This document shows, in pieces, positions 7,801 to 14,977 of a DNA stretch of 64,000 nt. The stretch is from Theocolax elegans (Eukaryota; Arthropoda; Insecta; Hymenoptera; Cerocephalidae). The position numbers and the translations under genes were made by a program. The notes below the pieces were generated by a model that saw only the letters and a program-made list of their open reading frames with translations, did not search any database and was not told the origin of the DNA. How positions within the stretch are numbered: the stretch's first letter is position 1; each line of letters begins with the position of its first letter. The DNA is taken from positions 40,568,711-40,632,710 of the forward strand of contig CM047425.1 of the NCBI GenBank assembly GCA_026168455.1, written 5' to 3'.

Positions 7801-7818
7801 GTAACTAAAGTAATCGAA
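7801..7818 (+). repeat. 18-bp direct repeat flanking the satellite array, left copy
   Basis: GTAACTAAAGTAATCGAA at 7801-7818 is repeated exactly at 14978-14995 on the far side of the array. The outer parts of the match (GTAAC and GAA) could be microhomology with satellite sequence, so a true target-site duplication would be 12-18 bp. Confidence 0.85.
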
Positions 7819-7932
7819 TAATATCGGTCTCTCTGAACCAAATGCTTTACTTTTAGATTATTGAAGGTCTATCGTACTCTTTGTCCACTATGGTTGGTGG
7901 AATTTCCCAGAGCACGGCCTTTTAAAATAATT

Positions 7933-8003
7933 AAAGGCGTTTCGTCCTCGATCTCCAGTTTGGACTCCTCAGTAAGGAACTGGAGATCTTACCTTAGACG
8001 CCT
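7933..8003 (-). ncRNA. Hammerhead ribozyme, first array unit
   Basis: Core and all three stems match the representative copy at 8321-8391. This unit is next to the left 18-bp flank and differs from the majority by T instead of C in the marker (GAAGGTCTATCG) and by CTCTCTGAACC at its border, so even the edge unit keeps the ribozyme unchanged. Confidence 0.92.
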
Positions 8004-8320
8004 GTCGCAAGATGATATGCGACGCCAGCAAGATGTTCTGCGGCTATATATATAGAAAACAGACGACGATCTCTCCAACGAGTGTAGAGAGATAGTCGTC
8101 TCCCTCTGGTGGTGGGAAAAGCCACCAGCCAGAGCGCGAATTTTTAGACCGTATCGCGAGTTATTTGTTACAAAATTTTAACGTTCGGTAATATGTATAT
8201 GTATAATAATATCGGTCTCTCCGAACCAAATGCTTTACTTTTAGATTATTGAAGGCCTATCGTACTCTTTGTCCACTATGGTTGGTGGAATTTCCCAGAG
8301 CACGGCCTTTTAAAATAATT

Positions 8321-8391
8321 AAAGGCGTTTCGTCCTCGATCTCCAGTTTGGACTCCTCAGTAAGGAACTGGAGATCTTACCTTAGACGCCT
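8321..8391 (-). ncRNA. Type III hammerhead ribozyme, representative satellite unit
   Basis: Read on the minus strand, 8391 down to 8321. Stem III 5' strand AGGCGT, then C17 giving the GTC cleavage triplet (cut between 8385 and 8384). Stem I is TAAGG paired with CCTTA (8384-8380 with 8365-8361). The core is CTGAGGA (8360-8354). Stem II is GTCC with GGAC (8353-8350 with 8335-8332). GAAA (8331-8328) is followed by stem III 3' strand ACGCCT, six perfect pairs in all. Every invariant core base of the hammerhead family is present. Loop I (14 nt) contains GATCTCCAGTT and loop II (14 nt) contains AACTGGAGATC, so 11 pairs could form between the loops. The ends are in stem III, hence type III. Identical copies occur at 7933-8003, 8709-8779, 9097-9167, 9486-9556, 9873-9943, 10462-10532, 10847-10917, 11235-11305, 11622-11692, 12011-12081, 12399-12469, 12785-12855, 13173-13243, 13561-13631 and 13949-14019. 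Confidence 0.93.
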
Positions 8392-10098
8392 GTCGCAAGA
8401 TGATATGCGACGCCAGCAAGATGTTCTGCGGCTATATATATAGAAAACAGACGACGATCTCTCCAACGAGTGTAGAGAGATAGTCGTCTCCCTCTGGTGG
8501 TGGGAAAAGCCACCAGCCAGAGCGCGAATTTTTAGACCGAATCGCGAGTTATTTGTTACAAAATTTTAACGTTCGGTAATATGTATATGTATAATAATAT
8601 CGGTCTCTCCGAACCAAATGCTTTACTTTTAGATTATTGAAGGCCTATCGTACTCTTTGTCCACTATGGTTGGTGGAATTTCCCAGAGCACGGCCTTTTA
8701 AAATAATTAAAGGCGTTTCGTCCTCGATCTCCAGTTTGGACTCCTCAGTAAGGAACTGGAGATCTTACCTTAGACGCCTGTCGCAAGATGATATGCGACG
8801 CCAGCAAGATGTTCTGCGGCTATATATATAGAAAACAGACGACGATCTCTCCAACGAGTGTAGAGAGATAGTCGTCTCCCTCTGGTGGTGGGAAAAGCCA
8901 CCAGCCAGAGCGCGAATTTTTAGACCGTATCGCGAGTTATTTGTTACAAAATTTTAACGTTCGGTAATATGTATATGTATAATAATATCGGTCTCTCCGA
9001 ACCAAATGCTTTACTTTTAGATTATTGAAGGCCTATCGTACTCTTTGTCCACTATGGTTGGTGGAATTTCCCAGAGCACGGCCTTTTAAAATAATTAAAG
9101 GCGTTTCGTCCTCGATCTCCAGTTTGGACTCCTCAGTAAGGAACTGGAGATCTTACCTTAGACGCCTGTCGCAAGATGATATGCGACGCCAGCAAGATGT
9201 TCTGCGGCTATATATATAGAAAACAGACGACGATCTCTCCAACGAGTGTAGAGGGATAGTCGTCTCCCTCTGGTGGTGGGAAAAGCCACCAGCCAGAGCG
9301 CGAATTTTAGACCGTATCGCGAGTTATTTGTTACAAAATTTTAACGTTCGGTAATATGTATATGTATAATAATATCGGTCTCTCTCCGAACCAAATGCTT
9401 TACTTTTAGATTATTGAAGGTCTATCGTACTCTTTGTCCACTATGGTTGGTGGAATTTCCCAGAGCACGGCCTTTTAAAATAATTAAAGGCGTTTCGTCC
9501 TCGATCTCCAGTTTGGACTCCTCAGTAAGGAACTGGAGATCTTACCTTAGACGCCTGTCGCAAGATGATATGCGACGCCAGCAAGATGTTCTGCGGCTAT
9601 ATATATAGAAAACAGACGACGATCTCTCCAACGAGTGTAGAGAGATAGTCGTCTCCCTCTGGTGGTGGGAAAAGCCACCAGCCAGAGCGCGAATTTTTAG
9701 ACCGTATCGCGAGTTATTTGTTACAAAATTTTAACGTTCGGTAATATGTATATGTATAATAATATCGGTCTCTCCGAACCAAATGCTTTACTTTTAGATT
9801 ATTGAAGGCCTATCGTACTCTTTGTCCACTATGGTTGGTGAATTTCCCAGAGCACGGCCTTTTAAAATAATTAAAGGCGTTTCGTCCTCGATCTCCAGTT
9901 TGGACTCCTCAGTAAGGAACTGGAGATCTTACCTTAGACGCCTGTCGCAAGATGATATGCGACGCCAGCAAGATGTTCTGCGGCTATATATATAGAAAAC
10001 AGACGACGATCTCTCCAACGAGTGTAGAGAGATAGTCGTCTCCCTCTGGTGGTGGGAAAAGCCACCAGCCAGAGCGCGAATTTTTAGACCGAATCGCG

Positions 10099-10165
10099 CA
10101 GTTTGGACTCCTCAGTAAGGAACTGGAGATCTTACCTTAGACGCCTGTCGCAAGATGATATGCGA
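10099..10165 (-). ncRNA. Truncated hammerhead in a partial satellite unit
   Basis: The partial unit fuses a neighbouring unit at GAATCGCG directly to CAGTTTGGACTCC. The stem I, CTGAGGA and cleavage-site portion is kept. The GAAA core strand, the 3' strand of stem II and the 3' strand of stem III are lost, so this copy cannot cleave by itself. Confidence 0.85.
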
Positions 10166-13100: not shown

Positions 13101-14126
13101 TTGAAGGCCTATCGTACTCTTTGTCCACTATGGTTGGTGGAATTTCCCAGAGCACGGCCTTTTAAAATAATTAAAGGCGTTTCGTCCTCGATCTCCAGTT
13201 TGGACTCCTCAGTAAGGAACTGGAGATCTTACCTTAGACGCCTGTCGCAAGATGATATGCGACGCCAGCAAGATGTTCTGCGGCTATATATATAGAAAAC
13301 AGACGACGATCTCTCCAACGAGTGTAGAGAGATAGTCGTCTCCCTCTGGTGGTGGGAAAAGCCACCAGCCAGAGCGCGAATTTTTAGACCGAATCGCGAG
13401 TTATTTGTTACAAAATTTTAACGTTCGGTAATATGTATATGTATAATAATATCGGTCTCTCCGAACCAAATGCTTTACTTTTAGATTATTGAAGGCCTAT
13501 CGTACTCTTTGTCCACTATGGTTGGTGGAATTTCCCAGAGCACGGCCTTTTAAAATAATTAAAGGCGTTTCGTCCTCGATCTCCAGTTTGGACTCCTCAG
13601 TAAGGAACTGGAGATCTTACCTTAGACGCCTGTCGCAAGATGATATGCGACGCCAGCAAGATGTTCTGCGGCTATATATATAGAAAACAGACGACGATCT
13701 CTCCAACGAGTGTAGAGAGATAGTCGTCTCCCTCTGGTGGTGGGAAAAGCCACCAGCCAGAGCGCGAATTTTTAGACCGTATCGCGAGTTATTTGTTACA
13801 AAATTTTAACGTTCGGTAATATGTATATGTATAATAATATCGGTCTCTCCGAACCAAATGCTTTACTTTTAGATTATTGAAGGCCTATCGTACTCTTTGT
13901 CCACTATGGTTGGTGGAATTTCCCAGAGCACGGCCTTTTAAAATAATTAAAGGCGTTTCGTCCTCGATCTCCAGTTTGGACTCCTCAGTAAGGAACTGGA
14001 GATCTTACCTTAGACGCCTGTCGCAAGATGATATGCGACGCCAGCAAGATGTTCTGCGGCTATACATATAGAAAACAGACGACGATCTCTCCAACGAGTG
14101 TAGAGAGATAGTCGTCTCCCTCTGAG

Positions 14127-14160
14127 GGAATCAGATCGAGGACGAAACGCCTTTAATTAT
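14127..14160. other. Orientation switch inside the satellite array
   Basis: The last forward unit stops inside the hairpin region after CTCCCTCTG (about 14124). A short joining sequence (AGGGAATCAG) follows, then ATCGAGGACGAAACGCC in the opposite orientation (from about 14134), which is then cut short at TTTAATTATATATT. Inverted units continue to 14977. Only the 3' half of a ribozyme is present at the junction. It looks like a head-to-head rearrangement with small deletions. Confidence 0.85.
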
Positions 14161-14369
14161 ATATTATTATACATATACATATTACCGAACGTTAAAATTT
14201 TGTAACAAATAACTCGCGATACGGTCTAAAAATTCGCGCTCTGGCTGGTGGCTTTTCCCACCACCAGAGGGAGACGACTATCTCTCTACACACGTTGGAG
14301 AGATCGTCGTCTGTTTTCTATATATATAGCCGCAGAACATCTTGCTGGCGTCGCATATCATCTTGCGAC

Positions 14370-14440
14370 AGGCGTCTAAGGTAAGATCTCCAGTTCCTTA
14401 CTGAGGAGTCCAAACTGGAGATCGAGGACGAAACGCCTTT
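14370..14440 (+). ncRNA. Hammerhead ribozyme, inverted unit 1
   Basis: Same motif on the plus strand: AGGCGTC at 14370-14376 (cut after 14376), TAAGG and CCTTA stem I, CTGAGGA core, GTCC and GGAC stem II, GAAAC, and CGCCTTT ending at 14440. A plus-strand transcript through this end of the array would cleave here, whereas the 16 forward units need minus-strand transcription. Confidence 0.92.
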
Positions 14441-14757
14441 AATTATTTTAAAAGGCCGTGCTCTGGGAAATTCCACCAACCATAGTGGACAAAGAGTACG
14501 ATAGGCCTTCAATAATCTAAAAGTAAAGCATTTGGTTCGGAGAGACCGATATTATTATACATATACATATTACCGAACGTTAAAATTTTGTAACAAATAA
14601 CTCGCGATTCGGTCTAAAAATTCGCGCTCTGGCTGGTGGCTTTTCCCACCACCAGAGGGAGACGACTATCTCTCTACACTCGTTGGAGAGATCGTCGTCT
14701 GTTTTCTATATATATAGCCGCAGAACATCTTGCTGGCGTCGCATATCATCTTGCGAC

Positions 14758-14828
14758 AGGCGTCTAAGGTAAGATCTCCAGTTCCTTACTGAGGAGTCCA
14801 AACTGGAGATCGAGGACGAAACGCCTTT
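14758..14828 (+). ncRNA. Hammerhead ribozyme, inverted unit 2
   Basis: Second plus-strand copy, 388 bp after the first, with an unchanged core and stems. It is the last ribozyme before the right 18-bp flank. Confidence 0.92.
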
Positions 14829-14977
14829 AATTATTTTAAAAGGCCGTGCTCTGGGAAATTCCACCAACCATAGTGGACAAAGAGTACGATAGGCCTTCAA
14901 TAATCTAAAAGTAAAGCATTTGGTTCGGAGAGACCGATATTATTATACATATACATATTACCGAACGTTAAAATTTT

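Follow-up and report, generated by a model that had tools for sequence, protein, structure and literature searches.

Retrozymes without long terminal repeats (LTRs), described in animals from coral, mussel and axolotl, are short, non-coding, tandemly arranged elements with units of about 150-450 bp, a G+C content below 50%, a type I hammerhead ribozyme in every full unit, RNAs of about 170-400 nt and, when one is present, a target-site duplication of more than 4 bp (PMC7229834). As published, they have neither a primer-binding site nor a polypurine tract, and their RNA occurs as circular and linear monomers (PMC7229834). Plant LTR retrozymes carry type III hammerheads instead, and are non-autonomous elements of 600-1000 nt with an LTR pair, a 4-bp target-site duplication and mostly one or two units, and in their circles pairing is predicted to block the ribozyme (PMC7229834, PMC7761336). 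According to a 2011 survey, repeat-associated hammerheads of eukaryotes are overwhelmingly type I, and its authors considered it possible that repeats depend on this layout to propagate (PMC3088659), a requirement against which the plant LTR retrozymes already spoke. Metazoan genomes have been searched for both type I and type III motifs, with type I elements being reported (PMC7229834), while a 2020 review contains a hint of type III elements in insects; our own literature search, limited in its coverage, returned no description of an animal retroelement that combines tandem units with a type III hammerhead. Here we describe a candidate for such an element in a 64,000-nucleotide stretch of contig CM047425.1 (GCA_026168455.1; hereafter the window), namely a tandem array of 388-bp units at positions 7817-14982. 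Judging from its sequence, this array is probably a non-autonomous, non-LTR retrozyme-like element of an insect-like genome, carrying a ribozyme of type III where type I is usual, a reading to which we assign about two chances in three.

In each full unit, the minus-strand RNA reads AGGCGUC/UAAGG-(14)-CCUUA-CUGAGGA-GUCC-(14)-GGAC-GAA-ACGCCU, where the slash marks the predicted cut and the numbers give loop lengths in nucleotides. Stems III, I and II are 6, 5 and 4 bp long and all perfect, both RNA ends lie in stem III, which is open-ended, and the core CUGAGGA, the GAAA and the GUC cut site, present in 18 copies, match the invariant CUGANGA...GAAA and NUH. By topology and core bases the array ribozyme is a type III hammerhead, and the Rfam model RF00008 (Hammerhead_3) aligned to all five intact copies between 13000 and 15000, the only stretch scanned in that way, with a score of 35.5 bits (E-value 2e-5). 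The 5' half of the motif (AGGCGTC TAAGG-loop-CCTTA CTGAGGA GTCC) occurs in 19 exact copies, 17 on the minus and two on the plus strand, and the 3' half (CTGAGGA GTCC-loop-GGAC GAA ACGCCT) in 18, 16 of them minus and two plus. Allowing up to three mismatches in the 3' half added no copy to these 18, and each of the three patterns searched was matched in none of 100 dinucleotide shuffles. Intact ribozyme motifs thus number 18 (16 minus, 2 plus). An example, identical in sequence to copies that RF00008 matched, lies at 8323-8391 on the minus strand, with the predicted cut between 8385 (C17) and 8384, and the two in inverted orientation, recognised by both RF00008 and the motif patterns, lie at 14370-14438 and 14758-14826 on the plus strand. 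A 19th ribozyme (10105-10146, minus) lost its 3' half through a 185-bp internal deletion with its junction at 10098/10099. An earlier note on this DNA had proposed a type III hammerhead in every full unit of a 388-bp repeat, with 18 intact copies in this strand distribution and the same cut position; the half-motif searches, the repeat analysis and the alignment to RF00008 bear it out on each of these points.

The units are about 99% alike, with a G+C content of about 43%. Cutting the array at the predicted cleavage site yields 21 segments, of which 16 are full units (385-389 nt; 15 minus, 1 plus) and five are partial. The main part, at 7817-14124, comprises 15 full and three partial units with the ribozyme sense on the minus strand. 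It is separated by an inversion junction (14125-14132), where about 8 nt of filler adjoin a short palindrome, from an inverted end at 14133-14982 with the ribozyme sense on the plus strand, which comprises one full and two partial units, the first of them with a 102-nt deletion close to the inversion join at 14124. An Rfam match to RF04174 (MIR4208) over this inversion, at 35.8 against 140 bits, was rejected and taken as an inverted-repeat effect. Fourteen open frames of 72-87 amino acids lie between 7837 and 14939 on the strand opposite to the ribozyme; they were judged non-coding because 388 is not a multiple of 3, and taken as chance. An internal RNA polymerase III promoter was likewise rejected, neither GWTCRANNC nor TRGCNNAGYNGG having an exact match on either strand. 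Positions within the unit are given below in RNA coordinates, position 1 being the first base 3' of the predicted cut.

An exact 18-bp direct repeat, GTAACTAAAGTAATCGAA, is found on the plus strand at 7801-7818 and 14978-14995, precisely at the outer borders and with the inverted part enclosed. The last two bases of the left copy (AA) and the first five of the right copy (GTAAC) also fit the unit, and because of this overlap the target duplication measures 13-18 bp, depending on where the line is drawn. As a control, near-register matches were measured at 19,903 random pairs of positions drawn from four stretches outside the array; none was longer than 13, and that length occurred a single time. 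The flanks, when joined, form a plausible empty site, and they run straight into array units without any LTR. Seen as a whole, the block with its inverted part resembles a single insertion that duplicated its target site, and not a plain satellite. The plus strand of the left-hand target, ending in ..TCGAA, is followed by a copy of the minus-sense RNA, and the minus strand of the right-hand target, ending in ..GTTAC, by another copy of this RNA. As read from these junctions, repeat RNA seems to have templated the extension of both target 3' ends, in opposite polarity, over about 6.3 kb on the left and 0.85 kb on the right, the two copies meeting at 14124. The borders fall at RNA positions 180 (left) and 218 (right), and their spacing of 38 nt is only suggestive because it is expected by chance about once in five cases. 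Inverted pieces are familiar from LINE elements, where they arise by a second priming event known as twin priming. Both target strands are cut and extended, without distinction, by a purified Penelope-like protein, which begins copying at an internal position of its template (PMC11167929).

Set beside the animal non-LTR retrozymes, the array shares the short non-coding tandem units, with 388 nt falling within the published range of RNA sizes, as well as the unit length, G+C content, lack of an LTR, hammerhead in every full unit and, in its 18-bp direct repeat, the longer target-site duplication (PMC7229834). It differs in having a type III ribozyme with a 6-bp open stem III and two 14-nt loops complementary over 11 nt, and because type I is what defines that group we refer to the array as a type III variant and not as a member of it. 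With plant LTR retrozymes it has in common the type III ribozyme, the non-autonomy and the predicted blocking of the ribozyme by pairing, but it has no LTR pair, a shorter unit, a target-site duplication of 13-18 instead of 4 bp, and many units. Tandem or partial-tandem copies, reverse transcription begun inside the template and extension of both target strands are also features of Penelope-like elements (PMC11167929). These encode a reverse transcriptase, usually along with a GIY-YIG endonuclease, whereas the 388-nt unit, in which the longest stop-to-stop frame is 87 amino acids, does not; their hammerheads are described as minimal type I variants (PMC7229834). Hammerheads within invertebrate tandem satellite repeats have also been described in the cave cricket pDo500 family (PMC2837043) and in Schistosoma W-elements, for which mobility was proposed (PMC8490949). 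The present array stands apart from both in its type III ribozyme and its enclosing target-site duplication. The pDo500 and W-element hammerheads we take to be type I.

A chain of steps that would account for these features begins with read-through transcription of the array into multimeric RNA. Each unit would then fold into the type III hammerhead, with loop I-loop II pairing as an aid, and cut after GUC, and the resulting 388-nt pieces would perhaps be closed into circles by a host ligase. A trans-acting reverse transcriptase, most probably from a Penelope-like element or a LINE, would make a staggered cut in the target and extend both 3' ends, with one copy starting around RNA position 180 and running through many units, and the other starting around position 214-218 and copying about two units in the other polarity before the two join at 14124. 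Gap filling would leave the 13-18 bp duplication, observed as the 18-bp direct repeat. Given the ordered variants described below, the template was probably multimeric and already carried them, or blocks of units were exchanged after insertion, or both. Together, the motifs, the RF00008 match, the direct repeat, the opposite polarity of the two ends with their 2-nt and 5-nt overlaps, the parallel with Penelope-like enzymes, the features shared with published retrozymes and a second, diverged copy in the same window argue for the retrozyme-like reading.

The results collected in this paragraph and in the folding analysis that follows weigh against that reading. At the gathering threshold, Rfam gave no match in the window: the RF00008 score of 35.5 bits is below the curated cut-off of 48.5 bits, which is a curator's choice and not a structural feature, and a whole-window scan at E-values up to 1, with stricter filters, did not list the family. 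The low score fits both 14-nt loops being insertions relative to the model in the alignment. The target ends ..TCGAA and ..GTTAC are without the 5'-ATT motif of one Penelope-like enzyme (PMC11167929), and Pfam scans of four frames in the window, with no further search for one, found no reverse transcriptase. The whole unit folds far better than its shuffles on either strand (z-scores of -7.57 minus and -6.93 plus), and folding therefore does not point to one strand as the functional one. Self-cleavage, circles and transcription are predictions. Finally, most differences between units are private to one unit, but G129A is shared by units 1, 5 and 14, A233T by units 3, 7, 16 and the inverted unit 20, and a TA deletion by units 8 and 9, and all three G129A units have A233T two units further on. 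Because some variants are shared in fixed order, a single 388-nt circle copied lap after lap is excluded as the sole template, at least without later exchange, although an assembly error within the tandem array may underlie the order of units or the variants. The retrozyme-like origin that the earlier note had suggested is thus strengthened by the target-site duplication, the opposite-polarity ends and the second copy, whereas its monomeric circle does not stand as the only template.

The folding analysis turns on the two loops. Loop I (UAAGAUCUCCAGUU) and loop II (AAACUGGAGAUCGA) could form 11 consecutive Watson-Crick pairs, in the example ribozyme between GATCTCCAGTT at 8366-8376 and AACTGGAGATC at 8338-8348 (both minus strand), worth -18.1 kcal/mol as a plain duplex. 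Complementarity of this length arose in one of 20,000 trials with shuffled loops. Across 20 further, mutually distinct loop pairs of type III-like motifs, every one from a viral contig and taken from the matches listed, the longest complementary run was 2; for the 124 loci behind them (at least 120 viral contigs and four bacterial or archaeal core matches in genome contigs) a GTCC/GGAC stem II was required, and the script preferred long stems, hence short loops. In nearest-neighbour folding without a pseudoknot term, a hairpin with stem III reached -28.6 kcal/mol against -13.5 kcal/mol for the hammerhead stems, and in the 388-nt circle an inactive hairpin was favoured at -126.4 against -111.3 kcal/mol, with a probability of 0 for stems I and II and of 0.81-0.99 for stem III. 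Among growing prefixes, stem I never exceeded 0.16, stem II stayed at 0, and stem III, at 0.97 for 71 nt, was at most 0.06 from 91 nt on. Stems I and II are predicted near zero because the two loops pair into a nested hairpin, in programs that are unable to score the pairing of loops I and II as a pseudoknot. Helix geometry makes it unlikely that all eleven pairs coexist while both stems are closed. These models speak either against a readily active ribozyme or for a switch, and the 11-nt complementarity looks like an exceptionally long contact between the loops or else a means of turning the ribozyme off. In most animal retrozyme circles the ribozyme can fold freely, and its block must then come from something else than self-pairing (PMC7229834), whereas the fold predicted here hides the ribozyme.

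One alternative that follows from these predictions is a ribozyme with little or no activity, locked by its 11-bp loop pairing in a non-hammerhead hairpin, while the element spreads without self-cleavage. The negligible stem I and II probabilities in the circle and in growing prefixes, together with the RF00008 score under its cut-off, are what this alternative would lead one to expect, and RNA need not be processed for a Penelope-like enzyme to insert it in vitro (PMC11167929). We nevertheless consider it unlikely. The -18.1 kcal/mol pseudoknot goes unscored by the programs, and pairing between loops I and II, predicted in about 40% of hammerheads, is common in natural ones and needed for fast cleavage where tested, with cleavage slowed when a 6-bp pairing is cut shorter (PMC3088659). 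In addition, the 70-nt ribozyme contains not one of the 15 variant events, where 2.7 would be expected (P about 0.05; the count leaves out columns beside the deletion of unit 7 as well as unit 19's filler and deletion), which is weak evidence for constraint and was rejected as proof of selection. A more speculative proposal, which we regard as doubtful, is an animal retrozyme lineage with a latched type III ribozyme. Here the same 11-nt pairing would clamp the active fold during transcription or, relaxed to a plain hairpin, switch the ribozyme off, sparing the template RNA for a reverse transcriptase that extends both target ends.

The other alternatives concern the origin of the array rather than the activity of its ribozyme. 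A plain DNA satellite, in which unequal exchange or replication slippage enlarged a short seed that had arrived by retroposition or transposition, and the hammerhead is passive or only trims satellite transcripts, would agree with units that are about 99% alike and with pairs of variants that recur at spacings of 4 and 9 units (1/3, 5/7, 14/16), as segmental duplication would give. Expansion alone, however, leaves unexplained both the 18-bp duplication around units of both orientations and the separate diverged copy, and we regard a plain satellite as rather improbable; expansion may have taken place after insertion and would then be compatible with the retrozyme-like reading. A viroid-like or delta-like infectious circular RNA, copied into the genome by a resident retroelement, is suggested by the compact fold of the unit and by the atypical pseudoknotted type III hammerheads of delta-like agents in termite and toad and of termite and fly genomes (PMC7936874). 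Those ribozymes have a stem I with an internal loop and an extra hairpin, a 6-bp stem II and a short GCCR/YGGC pairing, and occur in viral circles or, in termites, as isolated motifs, whereas the array ribozyme, found in tandem, differs from them in its stems and in the consensus of its loops I and II, with a 4-bp stem II and an 11-nt complementarity. According to the same source, their architecture was not found in hymenopterans, hemipterans and a cockroach (PMC7936874). The 2 kb scanned have a hammerhead on one polarity only, the predicted fold is branched and not rod-like, and an older diverged copy sits in the same 64 kb, all of which makes an infectious origin very improbable. Much the same low probability applies to the insertion of an extrachromosomal circular DNA, from which head-to-tail units could in principle derive, or to a DNA transposon carrying the array: there is no terminal inverted repeat at the borders, where the ends stop at unit positions 180 and 218, and the joining of DNA ends does not normally leave a long exact duplication.

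If the retrozyme-like reading is correct, a young animal array of type III units enclosed by a target-site duplication would count against the requirement for type I ribozymes in retrozymes of the non-LTR kind. The 11-nt pairing would also place a testable block inside the ribozyme itself, in contrast to published circles that leave it free. The junctions, in turn, predict that the two target ends both serve as primers for the reverse transcriptase, in an AU-rich region of the RNA near positions 180-218.

Beyond the array, the diverged copy lies at 48053-48185 on the plus strand and covers unit RNA positions 62-196 without the ribozyme (82.6% identity over 115 nt, E-value 1.25e-27). It starts at the 3' end of the ribozyme and ends just left of a foldback-like structure. 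A weaker similarity, beginning at RNA position 165 of the unit, is seen at 54695-54766 (plus strand) and includes ACCGAACGTTAAA (BLAST piece with an E-value of 0.012); it is possibly another decayed copy. Viral contigs held no exact match to the hammerhead core with the GCC of stem III, nor to the block GGGAAATTCCACCAACCATAGT, and phages and plasmids gave no blastn match to a 776-bp two-unit stretch, these collections being places where an insect element is not expected.

The foldback-like structure extends over 48192-54022. Its arms pair 48192-48694 with 53521-54022 (96.6%) and 49765-50790 with 52480-53511 (97.8%), and contain 108-bp tandem subrepeats, while its middle is a tandem array with periods of 197 and 402. 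Between the arms, a sub-threshold match to the model of the twister-P1 self-cleaving ribozyme (RF03160) was detected at 52374-52451 on the plus strand, with 44.8 against 67.2 bits and E-values of 1.2e-6 in the window and 7.4e-8 in 4 kb; this candidate includes the core strings GCAGCC, GUCCCAAGCC and GCAGAGGG. A microsatellite of nearly 4 kb at 22451-26141 is CT-rich and then GA-rich, with a strand switch near 24050 and a GC skew going from -0.79 to +0.85, and draws many microRNA models, all below threshold. A fragment of a piggyBac-type transposase at 46120-46707 (minus strand) matched PF13843 with an E-value of 1.2e-28, the other three frames scanned being without a Pfam match. This frame has 62 relatives, and the seven named ones come from four ants, one wasp, one beetle and one rotifer, which hints at an insect-like host but no more than that, since piggyBac-like elements can move between species. 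A satellite of about 100 bp forms two further blocks, at 30328-38612 and 60952-61525, which are in opposite orientation according to their consensus units.

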